64,000 bases of DNA, taken from Periplaneta americana. Lineage: Eukaryota > Arthropoda > Insecta > Blattodea > Blattidae. The stretch lies in assembly GCF_040183065.1 (NCBI RefSeq), contig NC_091119.1, forward strand, positions 200,099,543 to 200,163,542, read 5' to 3'. The position numbers were made by a program, and so were the translations under genes. How positions within the stretch are numbered: the first letter of the stretch is position 1; every line of letters starts with the position of its first letter. Below the pieces are notes generated by a model that saw nothing but the letters and a program-made list of their open reading frames with translations, was not told where the DNA came from and ran no database searches. Of the stretch, positions 8,825-26,683 are shown in pieces.

Positions 8825-9418
8825 AACAGGAAATTTTGAAGAGCAATGAAATGTGAATACGATTTCTCTATACGTGCCACACATCTGTGATTTATACAGG
8901 AAAATTCAACAAATAAATACACGTACATTTAATAAATAAATACTTACCTAACTGAACAGTAACATGTCAAAAGTTAACCATATGTACCAAGAGGTTATGC
9001 AGATATTGAATCAGTTGATAATTTTTAAATGTAGTTGGGTATGGAGAAATTGAGGTTATGTGTTTATCCTAATCGTTTTAAAAATTGATCCTTTTTATTG
9101 TATATAATATAATGGATAAATTATTTTAAGTCGTGCATTAAGATTATAATATTGAGTTATAGAATAAGAATTAACGAAACATAAGTATTTGTAAAAACGT
9201 TGGAAAAATAATAAATAATAAGAAGAAAAGCGCGCAATGTGCAACATTTATCGTGTAGGGACAAGACCAACGAGTTAGAAAGAGATCTAACTCGTTGAGC
9301 GAATCACATGGTCTGCCTTATCGCCTGTATTAGATCACGATGGCAGTAACACAGTCAATTGTTCCCAAAGAGTTTGTAATAGGGATATCCTGAACTAGCA
9401 CCAGCAGATAGCTATCAA
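8825..9418. other. AT-rich DNA, nothing recognised
   Basis: No gene or element end was found between the fold-back repeat and the mariner target site. A palindromic AACGAGTTAGAAAG / CTAACTCGTT motif near 9268-9297 is the only structure noticed. Confidence 0.45.
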
Positions 9419-11165: not shown

Positions 11166-11330
11166 AATCTGGTGTGGCTTAGTGGATAAAGCATCAGCAC
11201 GTAGAGCTGAAAACCCGGGTTCGGGCCCCGGTGCTGGAGAGAATTTTTCTATGATCATTACTGTTTTGTGTGCCGAAGTAATGGTGATAATCGAAGCTCC
11301 ACTCTAATTACAGGAGAGATTATAGGTGGC
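11166..11330 (+). mobile_element. tRNA-derived SINE with Pol III promoter boxes
   Basis: The head has an A-box-like TGGCTTAGTGG (about 11174-11185) and a B-box-like GGTTCGGGCCC (11218-11228). An anticodon-like arm sits between them, with stem TCAGC/GCTGA around a 7-base loop. A non-tRNA body follows. The B box departs from GGTTCGANTCC and the tail is fused to other sequence, so this is a SINE or tRNA pseudogene and not a tRNA gene. Confidence 0.65.
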
Positions 11331-14870: not shown

Positions 14871-15467
14871 ATCTGTTATATACGGTATATAGCTGTCCTT
14901 TCTTCTTTTTAGGACAGTTTTGTTAAAATATCGGTAATATATTTTTTTATTGTGAATTATCTTGCAAGTTTATATTAATAGCCTATGGCATGGTTACTGT
15001 ATTTAATGAAGGGAAGCTATCCTTTTATGGTATTTTCTCTCGGCTCTTGAGAAAACTAGTCATTTTCAATACAGTACAGTGAGTATACAAAGTTATGAAA
15101 CGCCAATGATATAACAGGTTTGTTCCAGCATGGTTAAAATCGGTTCTGAAATGTCTGCCCATGTGCATTCCAATAAGACTAGTGGCCGTGTGCACCATTC
15201 TCGATCATCTAGCCCGTTTATCAGCAATCACGGAAACATGGTCAATTCTTGACAATGATCAAGTTACAGATGCGGTGCACCGACATTTTCCCTCGATCAA
15301 CTCATTACCGTCAGCTGACGGTACGCTCGCTTGAGAAGAATCATCTGAGCGCTAGGTAACCGCGTATAAAACAGCGAACGAACGCACTCTGTCAATTATC
15401 GCTTCGTTTTTGTTTGTCGCCTTGTCGGACTGTTTCAAACATCGTCACAGGTTTCAAAACAAGTTTC

Positions 15468-15642
15468 ATGGAAGAAAAAAAGAAAAGAGCACCGAACTCC
15501 TCACAGTTCGAAGTGGGAATTCTTTTAGAACTCGTCGGCAATTCGGCATCTATATTAGAAAATAAAAGTACTGACGGAAGTTCTCTAAGAGAAAAGCAGG
15601 CTACCTGGTTGGATTTAACCTCACAATTCAACGCTGTTCCAG
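15468..15642 (+). CDS. Harbinger Myb/SANT-like DNA-binding protein, exon 1
   Basis: The ATG at 15468 opens MEEKKKRAPNSSQFEVGILL, followed by ELVGNSASILENKSTDGSSL and REKQATWLDLTSQFNAVP. The donor CAG|GTGAGT at 15643 leaves one base of a glycine codon. Together with exon 2 this forms a trihelix Myb/SANT-like domain of the NAIF1/MSANTD type (Myb_DNA-bind_5): hydrophobic LLELV, N-K-x-T-D, K..W..L...FNA, then a basic NLK..YENLKRR helix. The partner protein of Harbinger transposases has this fold and brings the transposase to the nucleus and to the element ends. The start was chosen because the longer frame upstream has no ATG. Confidence 0.82.
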
Positions 15643-17910
15643 GTGAGTTATACGTGTTTACATAATTCGGGAACATTTTAGAACATGGATTGCACGTACC
15701 AAATTATGTCTTAAAATACTAAAAAGAGCAGATTTGTCTGCGTTTGTCGAATGCGCATCATTATATTTACGAAAAGGCACTTTTCAGTGCCAATAATTTA
15801 TTTTGTGTGCACAAGGTTGGAATTTTGAACTAAGAGGGAAAGGGTGCAATCCATGTTCTGAAGTTTATCCCATCCACATAATTTATACAGTGGTTATTTC
15901 ATAATTTTGATAATAATTGGGAAAATTTTAGTATACGGATACCTCACTGACAATTATCTTGAAATAGGCTACTAAAAAGAGCAGATTTGTATGTATTTGT
16001 CGAATTCTCATCATCTTGCTTACGAAGAGACATTGCAGAGCCAATAATTTATTTGGGAAAATTTCAGTATAGGGATACCTCACTAACAATTATTAAAAAA
16101 AAAAAAAAAAAAGGCAATTCATCTGTGTATGTCGAATACGCATCATCATGCATACGAAAAGGAAGTTTTTAGTGCCAATTTATTTTGTGTGCATGAGATT
16201 GGAATTTTGGAGTAAGAGGGAAAGGAAAGTATCCTTGTTCTGAAATTTATCCATTTATTTTGTATTCACAAGGTTGGAATTTTGGAGTAAGAGGGAAAGG
16301 AAGGTATCCGTGTAATTTCTCTTAATTCAAGCGTCAATAGCCTTATTGTCCAAAACGTCATGTAGGTCCTAATAGTTTGAAACTGCAAATCTATAGCTAA
16401 TAAGTGATAATCTCGCATTCCACAAAATGGTCATTTAGTTTTACTATATTATTACCAGCATATAATAACTACTTTATTATTAAATTGGACAGTTAGGCCT
16501 AAATAATATTTTGTCCTCAAGTAAAGTCCCCAGAAACATGTATAAAATATTAGTCTATTTTTACAAAAAAAAAATATATATATTTTTATTATTCATCTGC
16601 AAACTTGCAGAGACATATCACTTTTTAGCCATCGATATATTATTAGACCTCCCTGTGAAAACTGTTGGGTAGTGTAAGGAGTGATTAAATGAAATTGAAG
16701 ATTAGACAGAAGTGAATAAAATAAATTTATTGCAATTTATATCAGTGTTCAATATCATAATCAAGTAGTATTATAATTTTAAAAAATTCCAGCGGTCTAC
16801 ATTAATACAAATGAACATGACAGTTATCTGATAAATTAAATAATTTACATCAATTGAACATAATATGTAATAGGTAAATAGCCTATTTACAGTGAGGTCA
16901 GTATTAAACTATTTTGAACTACTTTTTACTTCACAAAAACACACAAAAAAACATATTTTTTTAACAATTTTCTCTTTTTTTCTATTAATACAGGGTTGCC
17001 GAGTTAAAATTCTGAAAAAGCTGAAATTCATGTTAAAAACAACAAAAATAAGCTGACACCATTAATTATTATTTTCATAAGATAAAATAAGTAAATACAT
17101 TACCATGCATACAATAACAAACTATTCAGCATTTGAAATGTAAAACACACAACAAATACAGCCAGATTGCTATGAATTATTTTTATTATACTCTTCAGTG
17201 TGGTACATCTGACTTTATTAAAATATTTTTTGTCAAACACTTGTTCAGGGCACTTTCCAACATAGTTTAATTTGCAACATGCAATGGAAGAGAGAGTTCT
17301 GAGTTTCATTTTGTCGTTTCTATAAAAATGTGTATTGAAAACTTAAATTAACCGATTAATACAAAATAGACATTGGCACAGCAATTGTGACAAAAGCTGA
17401 CAACAGATATGAACTGACAAGCTGACAAACTTTAGAAAATGCTGGTCAGTTTTAAAACCTGACACTTGGCAAAACTGTTAATAAAATACACTAAACCTAA
17501 GTTAAGCTGAGCAAACCTAAACTAAAGTGACAAGCCAGGCTTGCTGTACAGTGAGAGTATATTTCCAAAAAAAATTTCACATTCCTTTTGTAAAACAGCA
17601 ATTAAATCGAGGTTTTGCAGAAAAAAAAGTTACGAAATCCAGTACTGACCTCGTTGTAAATAATGAATAAGTAATATAATGTGGAGTTATTGGAAGCTGT
17701 GATGAGTAAAATAAAATTACACAAGTTCCTTTCTTTCTAAAATTAAATAAGCTTATTATGCAGGATCCCCTACAAAGTTTGAAGTATATTGTACTTATGG
17801 TTGAAAATTATACATTAATAGAGACTGTGAATACATTTAACCCACATTTTCTATATAGCAGCATAATTATTAACATGGTTTTTACATATTTATGTTTCTT
17901 TATGTTTTAG
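15643..17910 (+). other. Intron of the Myb/SANT-like gene
   Basis: The intron runs from GTGAGT at 15643 to TTTTAG at 17910. Phase 1 is kept on both sides, and joining the exons gives VPG|VTKRSTQ without loss of frame. Its first part is a degenerate tandem repeat (15700-16320); the rest is AT-rich with no gene seen. Confidence 0.75.
15700..16320. repeat. Degenerate tandem repeat in the intron
   Basis: A block starting AAAGAGCAGATTTGT and containing TGTCGAATGCGCATCAT, GCCAATAATTTATTTTG and GGAATTTTGGAGTAAGAGGG recurs about three times, near 15723, 15976 and 16110, with a further partial copy near 16255. Copies differ in length and are diverged. An (A)18 run sits at 16095-16112. Confidence 0.7.
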
Positions 17911-18572
17911 GTGTAACAAAAAGGTCTACACAAAATCTAAAAGTATGCTATGAGAATTTAAAAAGACGTCTATGCAAAGACCTTGCAGATGAGAAAGTAG
18001 AGACATATAAGACTGGCGGAGGAAAAAAGAACATTAAAACCACAAACATTGACCCTAAACTACTAGAAATTATGGGCCATTCTGTAAGACCCTTACAAAA
18101 TGCCTTTGACTCTGATACTAGTTATCAGGGTGACGTTTTGTATGATGGTAGTTTGTCAGTAGTAACTACACAGTATGAGGTACCATCAACATCAACTGCT
18201 CCTGAAATGGAACCAGTTGAGCAGGCATCAACAGTATCAGCTACTGTAATACAGGACATCACACAGAGAGTAAATGTACAGACACCAGTCGATATGGTAT
18301 CGCCTAATATCTTCCAAGAAAAGGAAGTGGCACACTCCAAGACCCCAGCCAGCTCCAAGCAGTACCAATGGAATCGTCGTCGGATGCCTCAAAAACCAAA
18401 ACCTTCATGTGATGCTGTAGCTGACACCTTTAAAAAAAGAATAAGTGTACTGGAAAATCAATTACGAATGATGGAGGAAGAACATCTAAAAGAAATTAGG
18501 ATAAAAAACTTAAAAATTTCAGTGTTACGACAGAAACTAAAATACTGGAAAAAAAAAAATTCTGTTAATTGA
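17911..18572 (+). CDS. Harbinger Myb/SANT-like DNA-binding protein, exon 2
   Basis: The acceptor TATGTTTTAG lies at 17901-17910. The exon completes the glycine codon and reads VTKRSTQNLKVCYENLKRRL, closing the DNA-binding domain. A basic patch follows (TGGGKKNIKTTNIDPKLLEI), then an acidic and Ser/Thr/Pro-rich linker of about 100 residues. The C-terminal coiled coil begins DTFKKRISVLENQLRMMEEE and ends KLKYWKKKNSVN. The spliced protein is 278 residues with no lesion. Such a layout (N-terminal trihelix, linker, C-terminal coiled coil) fits Harbinger partner proteins. The ATG at 17892 is intronic. Confidence 0.85.
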
Positions 18573-18984
18573 AATGCCTACCACTGTCTCTTCCAGTTTT
18601 CAACTGGGTCATTCCGTGTCATTTCAACCAATATTCTTTCAAAATGTCACCCACCATCTCAGATCATCTTCGTATTAGGTGAACATGTTTGCTTACCTGA
18701 GATGTGAACATAACCAAAATATTTGTTTTACCTGTAGCACCATTTCTTTGTTATAGCTTCATGAAAATATAAAAATTGCATATATGTCACAAACACGGTT
18801 TATAAGGCACTCCAGAAACAAAAATTGCTGCAAAAACGGAATAACTGTACTTGATTCTTGTATTTAATTGTTTGTTTGTTATTGAAGATTTTGAAATTAC
18901 TATTGATATGAAATTATAATTGTTTGCTTTCTTTTACACACACGCACACACACATTATAACACTTTCCATGGATTTGGGCCAAA

Positions 18985-19600
18985 TGGTTAATCTGTTTCA
19001 GTATCAGTTATCAGTAGTTGTTTCAATGGTCGTTCCTAATGTCTTGTTCCCCAAGGTTGGAAATTTTTCATTATTCTTGGGAGACAATGTCGTGGCATCC
19101 ATTGGATGTGTTCAAACCAGTTATTTTTGTATTTAATCCAGCACTGATGTAACTTTCAGTTACTGGTAATTTAAAATTTGTTTATTAGCCTTGTGATATA
19201 ACAAAATAGCTATACTGCGCAGTTTTTCTCATGAACTTCATTTCAGCCGCTCTAATTCTTGATTTATCAGATGTTTCTAGAGTCCATATGTCACTGCCAT
19301 ACATTAACATTGGAAGTGCCAAATTGTTATAAATTTTACTCTAGTAGGTACTCCTTGAAAATTTTGTAGGTTAAAAAATATTATTTATGAGTCCTGTTAT
19401 TTTTAGGAACTTTGAGATGTAATTTTTTTCATTCTCATGAGACAGTAAACATCCTAAATAGTTAAATGACTTTGTTTGCTCAGTGATTTTATTATTAGTA
19501 ACTATTTCACTTCTTACTGGTTCTTGGCCTATGAATGTCATCATTTTTGTTTTTTATGGTAGAAATTGCCATTTCATAAGCTTGTATAACTTTATTCAGT
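18985..19600 (-). mobile_element. LINE reverse-transcriptase C-terminal relic
   Basis: Around 19330-19195 the - strand reads KIYNNLALPMLMYGSDIWTL, then ETSDKSRIRAAEMKFMRKTA and QYSYFV: the thumb and post-RT region of a non-LTR retrotransposon. It belongs to a family different from family R, which has YGCETWTLT at the equivalent place. Flanking parts (IAVHKLNKVIQAYEMAIST upstream) are also recognisable but full of stops. Confidence 0.75.
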
Positions 19601-19628
19601 TTATGCACTGCTATTTGTAAAAAAAATA

Positions 19629-19674
19629 TATATATATCTGTGTGTGTGTGTGTGTGTGTGTGTGCGTGCGTGCG
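19629..19674. repeat. (TA)n(TG)n microsatellite
   Basis: A short TA run is followed by a TG run with a few CG interruptions. Confidence 0.85.
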
Positions 19675-19695
19675 TATTTTAACTGTATATACTTA

Positions 19696-20018
19696 CAGCC
19701 TTAGACACAAAAAATGACATCTCCTGTAGTGTGAATTTGTCTAAGTCCATTTTGGACAGCACTTGGTTTACACGACTAGGGAAAGGATATTTATTTTGCA
19801 CTTAATTTATTATTTGAATATATCTTCCTTATAACACATATATCTTCATAACACCTATAAACAGACAAATAAAAGCAACTAACAAAACAAAGAAGAAAAA
19901 TAGCGGAGTCATGCATAAGAAATTTCTTCATGTGTTAACCTAAGCTCTCATTGAATCAATTGAAGTCTTCCGAAGGGGACTTTGTATGGCGGCCCATCAT
20001 TTTTTGTGTCTAAGGTTG
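19696..20018. mobile_element. TA-flanked MITE, 323 bp
   Basis: The ends are CAGCCTTAGACACAAAAAAT and, reversed, CAACCTTAGACACAAAAAAT, about 22 bp with one mismatch. TA dinucleotides flank both sides (19694-19695, 20019-20020), as for Tc1/mariner-type MITEs. No coding capacity. Confidence 0.75.
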
Positions 20019-20029
20019 TACATGATACA

Positions 20030-21285
20030 TCATAATAAAGTCTAAATGTGGAGCAACATAGCTTTTAGAACCACTACATATCTGATACAAACAAAAATAG
20101 ACATTTATAATTGTACCCCGGGTCCAAGTTTAGTAATATAATTTTCACACAAATGTTTGTTGACATTTTATTTCCTTAATATTCCTGTCATTTGGAATTA
20201 ATGGGTTCATTTGTTTCCTTGGTCACTTGTTATGTTCTTCCTGTTGCTGTGTGCATACTGCCTTCACACAGTGTAATGCTCAAAAGCAACCTCACAGGTA
20301 TCACTTTGAGACCTATAATATGATAATGCTGGGCCATGTGGACGCATACATTTAACAGTTATATCCCTTTCATCAGTATTTACTGCTTCTGCAAATCTTT
20401 TGCACCAGTATGAATCATATACACAAGCCACGTTGGAGTTTGCACTCCAACTGTAATTATTGCACTTCCATTGTGAGCTGATGCTGTAATGTTCATCAGC
20501 ACTAACCTTTTCGCACCAATTTCATTTATTGACAAGGGCACAAATTGATGTAGACTGTGAGTACCAGAAATTATAAAAGCTTGCTGAAATCGTTTATTCA
20601 GTTGGACACGAGTTCATGATGTCTTTTATGGTACAAAGAAAAATTTCAATTTCTTTAAGTGTTTCCCTACAGAAGTTGTAGATCAGACGTACTCATGGTG
20701 GGCACATCGCCCAGTGCAGAAGATGGGCGGGTGCTGGAAACTTCTGTACATGCAAACAGACAGTGTCGTGCACTCAGACCTATTGTAACCTAGCAGTAAG
20801 GTTGCTTGCGGTTTGTATCATGGATAGACCTATTGATACAATATTTATTTAACCTGGTAGAGAGAGATAAGGCCGTAGCCTTCTCTTTCCCTCTACCAGG
20901 GGATTACAACTACAATATCAAAAATATAATTTAATATTAAATTTACAATTACAATAAAATCAAAGTACTAAACATTACTTGTATAATAAAGACTGGACAA
21001 TTTATTATAGAAGTTAAGACCAAAGAAAGAATTAGTTACTGAAGTACAAATTAAACATAGCATAATTAAATAGGGATGAAATTACTGAAGATCGAAGTAT
21101 TTTATGCTACAGTAAGGAAGCTATTTACAAAGAGAACAGAAAAGTACCAGCACTACATTTAAAGTGACTCTTTTTGTTCAAACTGACAAACTTGCCAAAC
21201 ACTTACTATGCAGGCACTCTGTTATAGGGACAGAATATAACATTGAGCCATATTACAACATCAGGCATGCTCAAACATATGATAC
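20030..21285. other. Unassigned repeat-like DNA
   Basis: No open frame with motifs. The stretch around 20860-20895 (TAAGGCCGTAGCCTTCTCTTTCCC between CCTGGTAGAG and CTACCAGG) forms an imperfect hairpin, and similar hairpins end some LINEs. A LINE 3' end is possible but unproven. Confidence 0.35.
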
Positions 21286-21289
21286 TATG

Positions 21290-21430
21290 CAAATCATGCA
21301 AATCTGGCTTTCAGGTAGTAGCTCCCTGTAAAGCAGGTTTGAATAATTTCAAGGAAAAATTGTTCCGGGGCCGGGTATCGATCCCGGGACCCTTCGCTTA
21401 GCACGCGAACGCTCTACTGTTCGAGATGAG
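21290..21430 (-). mobile_element. SINE-B copy with a different tRNA-like head
   Basis: The body GAATAATTTCAAGGAAAAAT and TAGCTCCCTGTAAAGCAG matches the tandem SINE-B units at 42.0 and 57.4 kb. On the - strand the T-arm GGGATCGATACCCGGCC is the same. The part corresponding to the anticodon arm and D-arm differs (CTTCGCTTAGCACGCGAACGC on the + strand, shown in part: GCACGCGAACGC). It is a solo copy inside the 18.6-25.1 kb segment. Confidence 0.7.
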
Positions 21431-21434
21431 CGTA

Positions 21435-22670
21435 TGCAAGTAATAAAAAATTTAAAAAGACTGTCATCAGTGAAGTAAGTTATAGGGAAGTAAAGCATTA
21501 TTCCAGACATTTCCCTGGTTACTGAAAAAAAAAACGGAAAAAAATATAAACAAGAAAATGCTTAAAGCAAAATCATAATGATAACATTTAGTTGTGCACA
21601 TAATGTAAATATATTATAAATACAACACTCTAATTTGAAAAAAAGATATTGAAATAAAGTGATAAAATATTGTCAGTTCCACTAGGACAGTTGTTTTTAA
21701 TCTTTTTTTGGAAAAAGAGGCCCCTTTGAAAATATGGTGAAAGCTATGGACCCCCTTTCTAGAAAAATATAAAAAAAGGACTAACATTTTCAGATACGCT
21801 TCTCCTTTTTTACTGCTGCTTTTTAGTTCTGTACTGGTCAATAGGAGCTGGATATTTTTGTGTATTTTACATACACACGGAATTGTGTTCCTGGTGATCC
21901 TGCTGACACAGTGTTTTGGTCTTAATAAATTGGCAAAATGTAGAAAAACAAACTATTGTGGAAGAGGGTTTTGCTTTAAAAGTAGAGTATAGTTCTTGCA
22001 GATTGCAAAGTATAAGGCATTTCTGTTCATGTACATTTTTTTAAATGCTTTGTCTCTGATGCCTGACAATATTCTGGTAAATTCAGATTATTATAAAAGC
22101 CAGTTACCATTTTCACTGTTTCGTCTGCTAGCTTCTTTCCTCTTTTTATGTTTCGAAGATAAAGTCTCCCTTTCTCTTTCACAAGTTTTCTTCATTGCTT
22201 CACTCTCTTTCTTTTTTGACCAACTTTAAGAAACTAGTGTTAGTAACTAAATTTTTCCCTGCTAGTTACAGTTTGAATTTTTTGCATTATTAGGTCTAAA
22301 AGTATATCAAAATCTTCTGTCTTTTGCTTTATTTCAGTTCTAAGTGTTTCCTCTTCAGGTAGTGAAGCCGAATCAGGGTAAAGGATTCTCCCCCCCCCCC
22401 CCCCCCATATAAAATTTACCTAGTTTTGCTTTGAGAGAAGTTGATGCAAGTTCTATTTTATATTTGGCTACAGATGCCGTTCTGTGTTGTGGGATGCCAT
22501 GGATCTTGAGACACCCAAACTAACAAGGCTTTCATTTATACCCTCTTTAAAGAAAATTTCCATAACAGTTTGACTACAAGATCATCCAAAGGACTGGACT
22601 GTTTGCTTCCTCAGAAACTTCTATTATTTTTTTTATCATTTTTCCTGCATATGTATATATATATTGAATA
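21435..22670. other. AT-rich DNA with a long C run, no gene seen
   Basis: Open frames at 21614-21841 (-) and 21996-22229 (+) are hydrophobic or low in information and match nothing I know. A C run of about 18 bases sits at 22389-22407, an unusual homopolymer for this window and prone to sequencing error. Confidence 0.4.
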
Positions 22671-22671
22671 A

Positions 22672-22890
22672 GCAGTCGCGGACAGCCGATGAGGGATGGT
22701 CCTCAGCTTGGGGGTTGGGCGAAGAGCTAACAACCCATCACTGTAAAAAAACAGCTTGATACGATTCCTTCAAAGTGGGATATGATGATAGAGAATGGAT
22801 TAATTTTGCTCGGGATAGAGACCAATGGCGGGCTTATGTGAGGGCGGCAATGAAGCTCCGGGTTCCTTAAAAGCCAGTAAGTAAGTATCA
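22672..22890 (+). mobile_element. Family R retrotransposon, internally deleted (copy C)
   Basis: The last 110 bp encode VGYDDREWINFARDRDQWRA and AAMKLRVP, then the family terminus TTAAAAGCCAGTAAGTAAGT. Upstream, GTCGCGGACAGCCGATGAGG comes from somewhere else, so most of the reverse transcriptase is missing. Confidence 0.75.
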
Positions 22891-23239
22891 TTTTTCCTGC
22901 AATTTGGACACATCTTTATGCCAAGTGCAGCATTATGTCCTTTCCTCTGTAATTTCCTGGCATTAACAAGGTAGGCTATATCTCTTTCAAACCAGATATG
23001 TTTTTTTGTGTGTTTTAAACAAATTACACTTGCTCACTATGAGTGAAAACCTCCAGAGATAATTATTTGTTCTTATGGTAATCACAGCATGTTGCCTTTG
23101 TTACAAGACTTGATATTGCTATATCTTCTCTCCATAACAGAAATTCTCCTCTTCTTTTGTTTGTTTATTTGTCATTAACAGACCCTTGACAGGTATCAGT
23201 ATTTGAACAAAAGGCAGCATATGCATTGACTTTATGACA

Positions 23240-24435
23240 AGGTTTTACAGATAACACTCCATTACAATCACACAGAAATCAACGCAGCCTTATTTTATAT
23301 GAAAGACTGAAAAGAATACCTAACATAGACTACTGGAGAACCTTCTCAGATACTCGTACAAGCTTAGAGATCCAACAAGGTTTCATACAGAAAGTTAAAT
23401 ATCTAAAAAAAAAACCAATATAGCCTACCATTAGACAAATATAGTATGGAAAGGTTACAACTTCCATCTTATCCTGTCAATAAATTAAAAATCCAAATTA
23501 CAATATAACACTATCAACACAAGATTCCAGAAACTGAATGGGTACACATCTACACCGATGGTTCTAAAATCAGCAATAACTTTAATAATACGACTGGTGC
23601 TGGAATATATAATAAATTATTTTGCTTTTATATATTTCTAGGTCAAAATTCAACTCACTTTGATGAGAACTTGAAGCAGTCAATTCTACATAAAAATAAC
23701 TTTTCTATCACAGTAACCTCTTTAATAAAGCTGTTATATTTAGCGATTCTAAATCAGTTATACAAGCCATTAATGCAAACACCTATGCAACAAAAAGAAT
23801 TACTGAAATTCACCAAAGTATCAAACACTAAGTTATCTCTTCACAATAAATAGTTTTGCAATGGATTCCTTCACACTGTGGAATTCTTGTTAATGAGATA
23901 GCAGATTTCTTAACAAAAATTAAAAAAAGGCACAATGATCCAACAAATTAAAAATTCATGTTTATCATTTCAATTTTCCAAAGTAATAATTAAGAAAATC
24001 ATCCAACAAGAAATACACAAAAAATTAGTAGGCCTACATGAGAGTATAAATAAGCAATGGAATATTTTATTAAACAATAACAATTTAATTCCAGACTGCC
24101 CATGAATGAAAGCTGTCGTCGCACTTTTTCAATTATATATGTGATATGATTGTTTGGCTGCTTATCTATATAAAATAAATATTTTTCATACTCCTAATTA
24201 TTTATTTTGTAAAGAAGAAAATACTATAATGGATATGACACACCTCAAGAATTGTACAAATTTAACAGTACACATCTGTCATAATACTGGGAAGCAAGAA
24301 TGCAAATGGAAGAACTCCAATACACAGAGCATTAGCAACCTAACAACATTGACTTTTGAGACTTATAGTATTAAAGATTATACCTGTACAATAAAAAAAG
24401 TAATAAGCCAACAGCAAGTTTACACTATCTAAAAT
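23240..24435 (+). mobile_element. LINE RNase H and C-terminal relic
   Basis: Around 23540-23620 the + strand reads WVHIYTDGSKISNN and then GAGIYNKLFCFYIF: the first RNase H block. Near 23865-23930 broken frames give QWIPSHCGIL-x-NEIADFL, the last RNase H block. At 24150-24270 CLAAYLYKINIFHTPNYLFC and THLKNC form the cysteine/histidine tail. Multiple stops and shifts separate the parts. It resembles the LINE relics at 3089 and 13088. Confidence 0.75.
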
Positions 24436-25191
24436 ACTCGTAGGCCTATATCAATATTCCATATATAGCCTAAGTGAATTACCCAAACTTTTCAGAAATA
24501 TAATGCAAAGCAGAGTTTGAAAATTATAATTTTACATATGCTTTATGTGGCTTAATTTCTAGATTTTATCAAAGTATTTTTTTTTTCTCGAGAACCTCTC
24601 ATTTCTAAAAAAAAAAAAACAATTTTCTTCCCTAGTAAAGACTGGTGCACACTTAAAAAAAATCTACAATTCTGAATATACAGCAAATTGTTCTTTATAA
24701 TATTATACATATCTAAATTTTTGAAGTAATTTGACACTTAGGTAACTAAATTACCAGTATACTGATACCAAGAAGCCATATTGTGAAATTCTCCAATGTA
24801 TATTGAATAAAATAAAGGAAGAATCAAGGCTCTGGCGTTCATTCTTTACTTTTTATATCTACATTTGTTCCACTCTGCACTCATCAATATCAGTTACTGG
24901 GTGAGAACACATGAACTTCAACGGGCTGTAACTCACTCATGCAACAACGGAATAATCTAAATTCTGCCAGATTTCTGTACTGGTACACATAAAACTCATG
25001 ACCAAATATCATAACAATCGCTATCAGTGGGTGACATGTTTTAGTTGCACTGACACAGAATGACTCTAGCGCTTTGTCTAAAAAATAAGTGTTTCAGAAA
25101 TTGTTAAATATAAAGTTAAAATTAATGTTCATAATTAAAAGCAAAAATTAATGTTCAATGTTATTACACTGATGCTACTGACTGACTTACC

Positions 25192-26313
25192 TTATTGAAA
25201 ATGTTGGTTAATTATAGCTTGACGAAATGCTCTCCCAGGCACAGCATCATTGCGCTGCATCAACTCTCCTTGGGGAACAGGTTCATCATCATCAATGTCA
25301 GGGCCTCTTAAACCTCGTAACTCCTCTAGTAGTCGCACCATCTGTGGATCTTCAGGCGGTTCTTCATTGCTGGTGCTTCTGGCAATGTTATGCGGTACTG
25401 CAGTAGCCGTTATTACAGTCATGGCTTTCTGCAGACCACATCTCAAACCCACTGACAATATTGGAAACCTTCTTTTCCATATACCATACTGCCTTTCTAC
25501 AGTGTTCCTTGTTTTGATGTGTGCTCTATTATATCGCTGTTCGGCTGGAGTTAGTGGATTTAACAGTGGAGTTAATAAATATGGTTTGCAGGCATAACCT
25601 CCATCTCCTAATAAATACCCATGCGGTATTTCACCATTTTCAAATTGTGCTCTACGAGCACAGTTACGAAATATGGTGCTATCATGCACAGATCCTGCCC
25701 ATCTTGCCACAATATCCCTTATCAATAGATTGTGATCACTGATTGTCTGACAATTCAAAGAGAAATAACCTTTCCTGTTACGGAAGTGTTCTGCGTTGTC
25801 TCCCCCAGGAGATTGAATTCTAATATGTGTACAATCTATTGTTCCTATCACACCCGGAAATCCATCTATTTGATGAAATCCATCCATTACATTTTGTAAA
25901 TCGGCCCTTGCTGGAAAAACAATGAAGCGTGGAAAGAACGATGCAATGATTTCCGACACTTCACTGGTGATACGCTGCACTGTTGTTCGATGTATATTAG
26001 CAGTGTCCCCGATAACAATATTAAAAGCACCTGTGGCATACGATCGTAAAGTTGCCAAAACTCTGTTCATAGGAGAAACGGGATTATTTCTGTTGGTAGG
26101 GAACTCTAACCTATCGTTCATTTGGTCCACTAACCACCACACTGTTTCTTTACTCAGTCGAAATCTCTCTTCAAATTTTCTGTCTCCCAGATCTTCGAAA
26201 GGATCTCCTCTTTCTACAATAACACCAATTCTATTATTTCCGCAGTGATTTGCGTGTTCAAGATACATCATTTCATCTTCGATTCCATCAAGTACGTCAA
26301 ATCGTGCCGCCAT
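25192..26313 (-). CDS. PIF/Harbinger transposase (HARBI1-like DDE nuclease)
   Basis: Single uninterrupted frame of 373 residues, close to HARBI1 (about 350). The N-terminal motif is KFEERFRLSKETVWWLVDQM (46-65). A helix-turn-helix region follows at about 80-120 (NRVLATLRSYATGAF ... VQRITSEVSEII). The DDE_Tnp_4 fold carries D160 in VIGTIDCTHI, D211 in AGSVHDSTIF, the companion D237 in LLGDGGYACKPYL, and E273 in NTVERQYGIWKRRFPIL. All catalytic positions are present. The acidic C-terminal stretch IDDDEPVP precedes the stop. The start context ACCAAAATGG is good. It converges with the Myb/SANT-like gene and probably acts with it on the 25-bp ends. No lesion seen, so activity or recent activity is possible. 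Confidence 0.93.
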   Translation of the reverse strand: MAARFDVLDGIEDEMMYLEHANHCGNNRIGVIVERGDPFEDLGDRKFEERFRLSKETVWWLVDQMNDRLEFPTNRNNPVSPMNRVLATLRSYATGAFNIVIGDTANIHRTTVQRITSEVSEIIASFFPRFIVFPARADLQNVMDGFHQIDGFPGVIGTIDCTHIRIQSPGGDNAEHFRNRKGYFSLNCQTISDHNLLIRDIVARWAGSVHDSTIFRNCARRAQFENGEIPHGYLLGDGGYACKPYLLTPLLNPLTPAEQRYNRAHIKTRNTVERQYGIWKRRFPILSVGLRCGLQKAMTVITATAVPHNIARSTSNEEPPEDPQMVRLLEELRGLRGPDIDDDEPVPQGELMQRNDAVPGRAFRQAIINQHFQ

Positions 26314-26683
26314 TTTGGTTTTCTCGACTTGACCATGTTCAATTCAAGATAATCAGTCCCACACCCGTGATCAAATTTGATCATCATCAACTCGCTTGTT
26401 TAACTTTGATCGAGATTGATACTCCGCAAATTGGCGTTGAAGACGGTCAAGTGCCGACTTAACTTTGGTCAAATTTTGATCGAGAATGGTGCACACGGGC
26501 ATAGAACTGATTCCGAAACGATAGCTACTGAACTCCCAGTTCTCTGTTCCAGCGTGCTTTAGAACTTGTTCGGAACAAGTGAAATTGGTTCTCGACTGAT
26601 AGCAGAAACTTGCGAATTCTGAACTGCTGACGCATGCGCAGATGATGTATTATAAAGTTACGGTTAAAAAGTAGTAGTTCACT

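Follow-up and report, generated by a model that had tools for sequence, protein, structure and literature searches.

A two-gene transposon of 11.3 kb lies at positions 15183-26501 of a 64,000-nucleotide stretch of the Periplaneta americana genome (contig C3, NC_091119.1, 200099543-200163542; hereafter the window), and its relatives were sought throughout the 3.23-Gb, 91-contig genome. The element is very probably one copy of a young, two-gene cut-and-paste family of the PIF/Harbinger type, about 11.3 kb long. Copies stand at many independent sites with matching target-site duplications, they are nearly identical to one another, and internally deleted forms share their ends. The window copy was placed by the transposition machinery of this family. 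The copy, singled out by an initial annotation made from the window sequence, is genuine but is probably not the active one. Unusual features of the family are its size, a relaxed choice of targets and one striking copy that is permuted.

The initial annotation described 25-bp ends that differ at a single position, flanked exactly by TAG, and these boundaries proved sound. The terminal inverted repeats (TIRs) at 15183-15207 (plus strand) and 26477-26501 (minus strand) agree at 24 of 25 positions, with T as the first base, and TAG is found at 15180-15182 and 26502-26504, where both the sequence and paralogous empty sites identify it as the target-site duplication. With up to two mismatches allowed, the 25-mer occurs 542 + 543 times in the genome; because the reversed 25-mer used as a control occurs 0 + 0 times, chance is excluded as the source of this abundance. 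To search the genome for the empty site, the window flanks were fused over a single TAG and used as the query. Two of the 40 matches listed (40 of 811 candidates scored) were the window's own flanks, and the remaining 38 of 38 were uninterrupted across the join, at 77-84% identity. All seven paralogous empty sites that we fetched read through, carrying TAG at the site in six cases and CAG in one, and the boundary coincides with the TIRs and the 3-bp duplication. The window element is inserted into a copy of another dispersed repeat.

A genome search with the transposase returned 111 matches, 20 of which, besides the window copy, cover residues 1-373 at 97% or more (L010-L029), and about 20 near-full copies, each about 11 kb, could be recognized. 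Twelve of them (L010-L021) encode one identical transposase. L022 carries D160N and so lacks the first catalytic residue, there is a single change in each of L023 and L024 and a pair of changes in each of L025 and L026, L027 differs more, and L028 is interrupted by two stops. An ungapped residue comparison is uninformative for L029-L034, each of which is partial or shifted. Over the leftmost 480 nt, 20 of 20 copies match the window at 478-480 positions. Among the 19 near-full copies with both ends found, the window included, 16 have identical 3-bp duplications, and adding L027 (ATA/ATA, read from two analyses together) brings the count to 17 of 20; for L034 one end only was found. The 17 matched duplications are TAG (six), TAA (three), TTA (two) and ATA, GTA, CCA, TCA, TGA and GAA (one each). 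It is very improbable that these copies merely reflect segmental duplications with no transposition. Some copies have indeed been duplicated, namely one old copy found on both C15 and C22 and two short copies with common flanks, but the near-full copies examined have differing flanks and mostly their own 3-bp duplications, and the window insertion has empty paralogous sites. The C15 and C22 loci (C15:175515649-175526497 and C22:692132-702987, the latter on a small contig) share the same stops, and the pair is either a segmental duplication or a leftover haplotig. A self-insertion was also seen at C9:10488355-10499287 (L014, L063), where one family copy sits at a TAG within the left end of another.

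Divergence was measured over the right-hand part of 19 copies (2759 columns; L016, L028, L033 and L034 omitted). Pairs of copies differ there at 1-28 sites, and private substitutions average 5.6e-4 per site when L027, which has 11, is excluded. Because 12 transposases are identical and private substitutions amount to only ~0.06%, we may conclude that the family moved very recently, in line with the recent mobility that had been proposed. Insect substitution rates lie near 3e-9 per site per year. Taken together with the private changes, this rate would put the age of the family near 0.2 million years, though within broad limits.

The transposase gene (25192-26313, minus strand) encodes 373 aa plus a stop and matches PF13359 (DDE_Tnp_4) at 108.3 bits (cut-off 24.8), and the partner gene described below matches PF13873, so that the initial assignment to a two-gene PIF/Harbinger transposon stands. 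The length of the protein and the retention of D160, D211 and E273 were also correctly described. D237 of the GDxGY motif is retained as well, and by the usual RNase H order it seems the likelier second catalytic Asp. In a ten-row alignment of transposases (A1), D160, D211 and E273 are invariant, and D237 is present in nine rows and replaced by Gly in L038. The claim that the gene carries no lesion goes too far. Codon 307, within the LHN motif (25393-25395, minus strand), reads Pro (CCG) in the window copy only, whereas all 18 scored copies (L010-L027) have Leu, the codon in the nearest sister, L019, being CTG. In A1 the remaining nine rows, among them families at 21-22% identity, show Leu (eight) or Met (one) at this position.

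It seems, from this conservation, that the transposase of the window copy is probably non-working, and because of L307P the copy would no longer be a source of working transposase. We consider it unlikely that P307 is neutral and the window copy fully functional. That the frame is open and keeps all four acidic residues, and that the copy differs from L019 (on C7) at just 2 of 2632 right-end sites, would fit such a copy; the constancy of residue 307, both within the family and in distant relatives, argues against it. That the window copy is the best candidate for an active element, as had been put forward, is accordingly not supported. A single structure prediction of the window transposase, made with no alignment, had a mean pLDDT of 32.9, and nothing rests on it; a sequence search of the PDB found no relative (best E 0.39). 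Among 18 transposase genes (the window copy and L010-L026), substitutions shared by at least two copies comprise six synonymous and two nonsynonymous changes, compared with 22% synonymous expected under no selection (p 0.002, uncorrected for relatedness), and private substitutions comprise six and four, respectively. A related transposase match (49%) at C3:4578407-4579321 (minus strand) lies within a 2030-codon open frame, which may be a fusion, a domesticated gene or a larger element.

The second gene is on the plus strand and faces the transposase gene. It consists of exon 1 (15468-15642), a predicted GT...AG intron (15643-17910) and exon 2 with the stop (17911-18572), and its spliced product of 278 aa matches PF13873 (Myb_DNA-bind_5) at 61.2 bits (cut-off 21.7). 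In three near-identical copies of one sister family (L130-L132), which lack the intron, an unbroken Myb frame spans the predicted junction gaplessly in 3/3 copies examined, and several remoter Myb relatives match from residue 2 or 5 to residue 132 or 147 as a single stretch. Because both sets align through the junction, the predicted splice, judged from these alignments, is correct in position and in phase, as the initial annotation had it. The sister family is located at C2:30612244-30617217, C6:155230940-155235379 and C16:90781612-90791536. Its transposase is 53-54% identical, and its intronless Myb homologue lies on the strand opposite the transposase; an intron of 2.27 kb may be a novelty of the window's family. 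A host origin of the Myb exons was considered and rejected, as the Myb matches in the genome show the exons travelling with family copies; the exons are part of the transposon. An A-run near the Myb stop varies in length and yields 278 or 311 aa, and residue 80 is Cys in the window and in L019 (= L050), compared with Arg in 8/8 other translated copies (L051-L058).

By analogy with the superfamily, the Myb/SANT protein would bind the subterminal region and recruit the DDE transposase, which would then cut the element out and insert it elsewhere through a 3-bp stagger. The motif GATCA recurs near both ends, at 15203-15300 (candidate Myb-binding sites) and at 26368-26483 (likewise candidate binding sites), with four occurrences in the left 285 nt, six in the right 188 nt and seven in the 10,846-nt interior. 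Eight of those in the ends remain after removal of the TIRs, a count equalled in 0 of 10,000 mononucleotide shuffles; this is a descriptive statistic for a motif picked post hoc.

Part of the family carries a frameshifted Myb gene. A net loss of 175 bp in exon 2 is common to L010-L015, L023 and L024 (8/8 aligned), and a ninth such copy, adjoining L034, was judged from its match pattern. Translation of five of these frameshifted genes behind the window's exon 1 gave 112 aa in four cases and 105 aa in one. Because L010-L015 and L024 show matching duplications at seven different sites, this lineage kept transposing once the frameshift had arisen, moved either by the full Myb protein of intact copies or by its own shortened one. 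That the lineage is self-sufficient, the 112-aa protein being enough, is possible but somewhat the less probable option. The shortened protein keeps the whole Myb domain (residues 7-80), and the lineage has reached seven or more sites, all with matching duplications. On the other hand, work on rice and zebrafish elements, as excerpted in PMC9710019, indicates a need for both proteins, and coexisting intact-Myb copies could help in trans. One copy, C12:10080429-10091303 (L023, L071, L086), has the transposase single-nucleotide variants and the interior of the intact-Myb lineage, yet the Myb deletion of the frameshifted one, and its duplications are mismatched (CAA/TAA); it looks like a recombinant between the two lineages.

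Short non-autonomous relatives exist as well. Ten TIR sites were excised for inspection, and at five of them the locus contained both ends, separated by 1500-1522 bp, within identical duplications (TTA, TAA, TTA, TTA and GTA). In these copies the left 1.4 kb, with a gap from about 450 to 694, is fused to the right 293 bp, and the main blocks are 86-96% identical. Two further sites show both blocks, the second end not being found, and three are without the right block in the locus. A 401-bp probe from one short copy matched nine others at 98-99% identity (40 of 2149 candidates scored). Both ends were found in nine of the ten young copies so probed, and the duplications match in 9/9, two of the nine having the same flanks. 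Because of this 98-99% identity and the matching duplications, we may conclude that some short elements were recently mobile. A more diverged set exists beside the young one, and the duplications match in 13/13 distinct short copies whose two ends were found. Many short copies (including L041-L048) retain Myb exon 1, open over ~67-70 codons, with no exon 2. The idea of selection on this exon was dropped, as the best-match listing is a biased sample.

The length of the element belongs to the family. Five other copies with pairable ends, among the matches listed, are 10.9-11.3 kb long, and a 701-bp piece from 18573-25191, the interior common to full copies, is present at 95-100% identity in full copies and at 72-84% in scattered relatives of greater age (40 of 89 candidates scored). 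Because the paired copies are equally long and the interior piece is present in full copies, the 11.3 kb is an inherited length that includes old repeat fragments as passengers, with no local inflation; the fragments are called repeats from the 701-bp piece and from reading of the sequence. Later nested insertions confined to the window copy were rejected, since other copies are similarly long and share the interior piece. Four interior or flanking open reading frames gave nothing above the curated Pfam cut-off.

Several points weigh against a young and mobile family with a disabled window copy. The duplications are mismatched in 3 of 19 copies (L023, CAA/TAA; L025, TGA/TAA; L029, ATG/GTG), the harm of P307 is judged wholly from conservation, and the case for recent mobility is drawn from the genome sequence, a point that bears on current activity. 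The size also stands against it: candidate autonomous PIF/Harbinger elements average near 4.1 kb in the excerpts of PMC4482050, mobility drops with element size, tested up to 7.1 kb, in those of PMC10288884, and 11.3 kb far exceeds the first figure and also exceeds the second.

One full-length copy, on C14 (94239831-94251107; L092, L053, L016, L093), is circularly permuted. It runs from element position 9178 down to 1 (94239831-94248993), continues through CTG and then resumes at 11318, descending to about 9203 (94251105). Its two ends, left and right, are accordingly joined head to tail via 1-3 bp, the right end having lost or changed its first base, and the copy is opened mid-element, where about 24 bp (9179-9202) are missing by comparison with the empty site. 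When the C14 flanks were joined, 40/40 scored matches (of 340 candidates) ran through the join, and three fetched empty copies of the target are identical. Compared with one of these, the element is inserted between CCCAG and TGTAAC, the target having lost nothing and gained no 3-bp duplication, although a 2-bp AG repeat is possible. The simplest reading of this arrangement is that an excised element circularized, was broken elsewhere and was captured by end-joining.

Whether PIF/Harbinger excision in the germ line of this insect can yield closed circles joined by 1-3 nt that, once broken at a different point, are recaptured by end-joining, C14 being a fossil of one, we regard as evenly balanced. 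A tandem insertion with later losses, a template switch during repair or an assembly fault would be other origins of the C14 copy, and together they seem rather unlikely. When the genome was searched for exact end-to-end junctions, gaps of 0-12 being allowed, C14 was the one case found, although diverged joints would escape such a search, and with a single such junction C14 may be a freak. Against these origins, no more than about 24 bp separate the two outer breaks in an element of 11.3 kb (by our estimate a ~0.4% chance were the breaks independent), no part of the element is present twice, and the target repeat shows one interruption, target loss not being seen. Circles are formed by hobo and Hermes (PMC2803484, in excerpts), and according to the excerpts of PMC10288884, evidence of eukaryotic circular forms existed only for Helitrons. 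Among the matches listed from the open-access literature, titles and abstract openings contained no description of a circular PIF/Harbinger form. If the circular origin is true, C14 would be natural evidence that excision in this superfamily can give a circular product, and recapture would be one fate of an element too long for efficient reinsertion.

A family this young is testable for live transposition, and it offers natural variants that differ in single features: P307 or L307, catalytic D160N, a full or frameshifted Myb, and a body of 11.3 or 1.5 kb. The questions it touches are whether an autonomous element needs its own Myb gene, how strongly size constrains the superfamily and what happens to excised elements that fail to reinsert.

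The PHIS superfamily comprises PIF/Harbinger, ISL2EU, Spy, Pangu, NuwaI and NuwaII (PMC4482050, in excerpts). By its sequence features the element is a member of this broad superfamily, having a DDE_Tnp_4 transposase, a Myb/SANT second gene, TIRs and a 3-bp duplication; its 25-bp TIRs agree with the superfamily's range of mostly under 60 bp. The target rules of the narrower groups do not describe it. TWA, the rule for PIF/Harbinger in the narrow sense, occurs in 5/17 near-full and 6/13 short copies, and the first TIR base is T, not the A or G usual in that group. For the C|TNA|G of NuwaII, we tallied TNA alone, in 7/17 near-full and 7/13 short copies, and the CWG of NuwaI is found in 0/30 matched duplications, the CTG of C14 sitting in the end-to-end joint. 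Because the TWA, C|TNA|G and CWG rules all failed, the group is left open. Among the matches listed from the open-access literature, titles and abstract openings held no description of the window's family.

Compared with the PHIS elements excerpted in PMC4482050, the family has the same DDE transposase and Myb/SANT gene, short TIRs and 3-bp duplications, but it is 11.3 kb long against group means of ~4.1-4.8 kb, its duplications are mostly non-TWA and its TIRs begin with T instead of the usual A or G. It resembles NuwaII in its transposase and Myb/SANT gene and in 14/30 TNA duplications, whereas the commonest duplication of full copies is TAG (6/17), not C|TNA|G (PMC4482050). Like rice Ping/mPing, it combines a two-protein autonomous element with many short derivatives; here, however, the derivatives are ~1.5 kb and carry Myb exon 1, and the autonomous element is about twice as long (PMC10288884, in excerpts). 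Zebrafish Harbinger3_DR also has a Myb-like partner that binds subterminal DNA and acts with the transposase, while in the present family such binding is suggested by the GATCA-rich ends (PMC9710019, in excerpts). The episomes of hobo and Hermes likewise have ends joined by a few intercalary bases, and their circles can reintegrate, but these are hAT elements of another superfamily, and Hermes episomes reintegrated via their own ends, whereas the C14 copy is permuted and without a 3-bp duplication (PMC2803484). Finally, the cockroach genes BPLG1 and BPLG2 derive from the same transposase superfamily in the same insect order; they are single domesticated genes without TIRs, in contrast to the mobile, multicopy family found here (PMC9710019).

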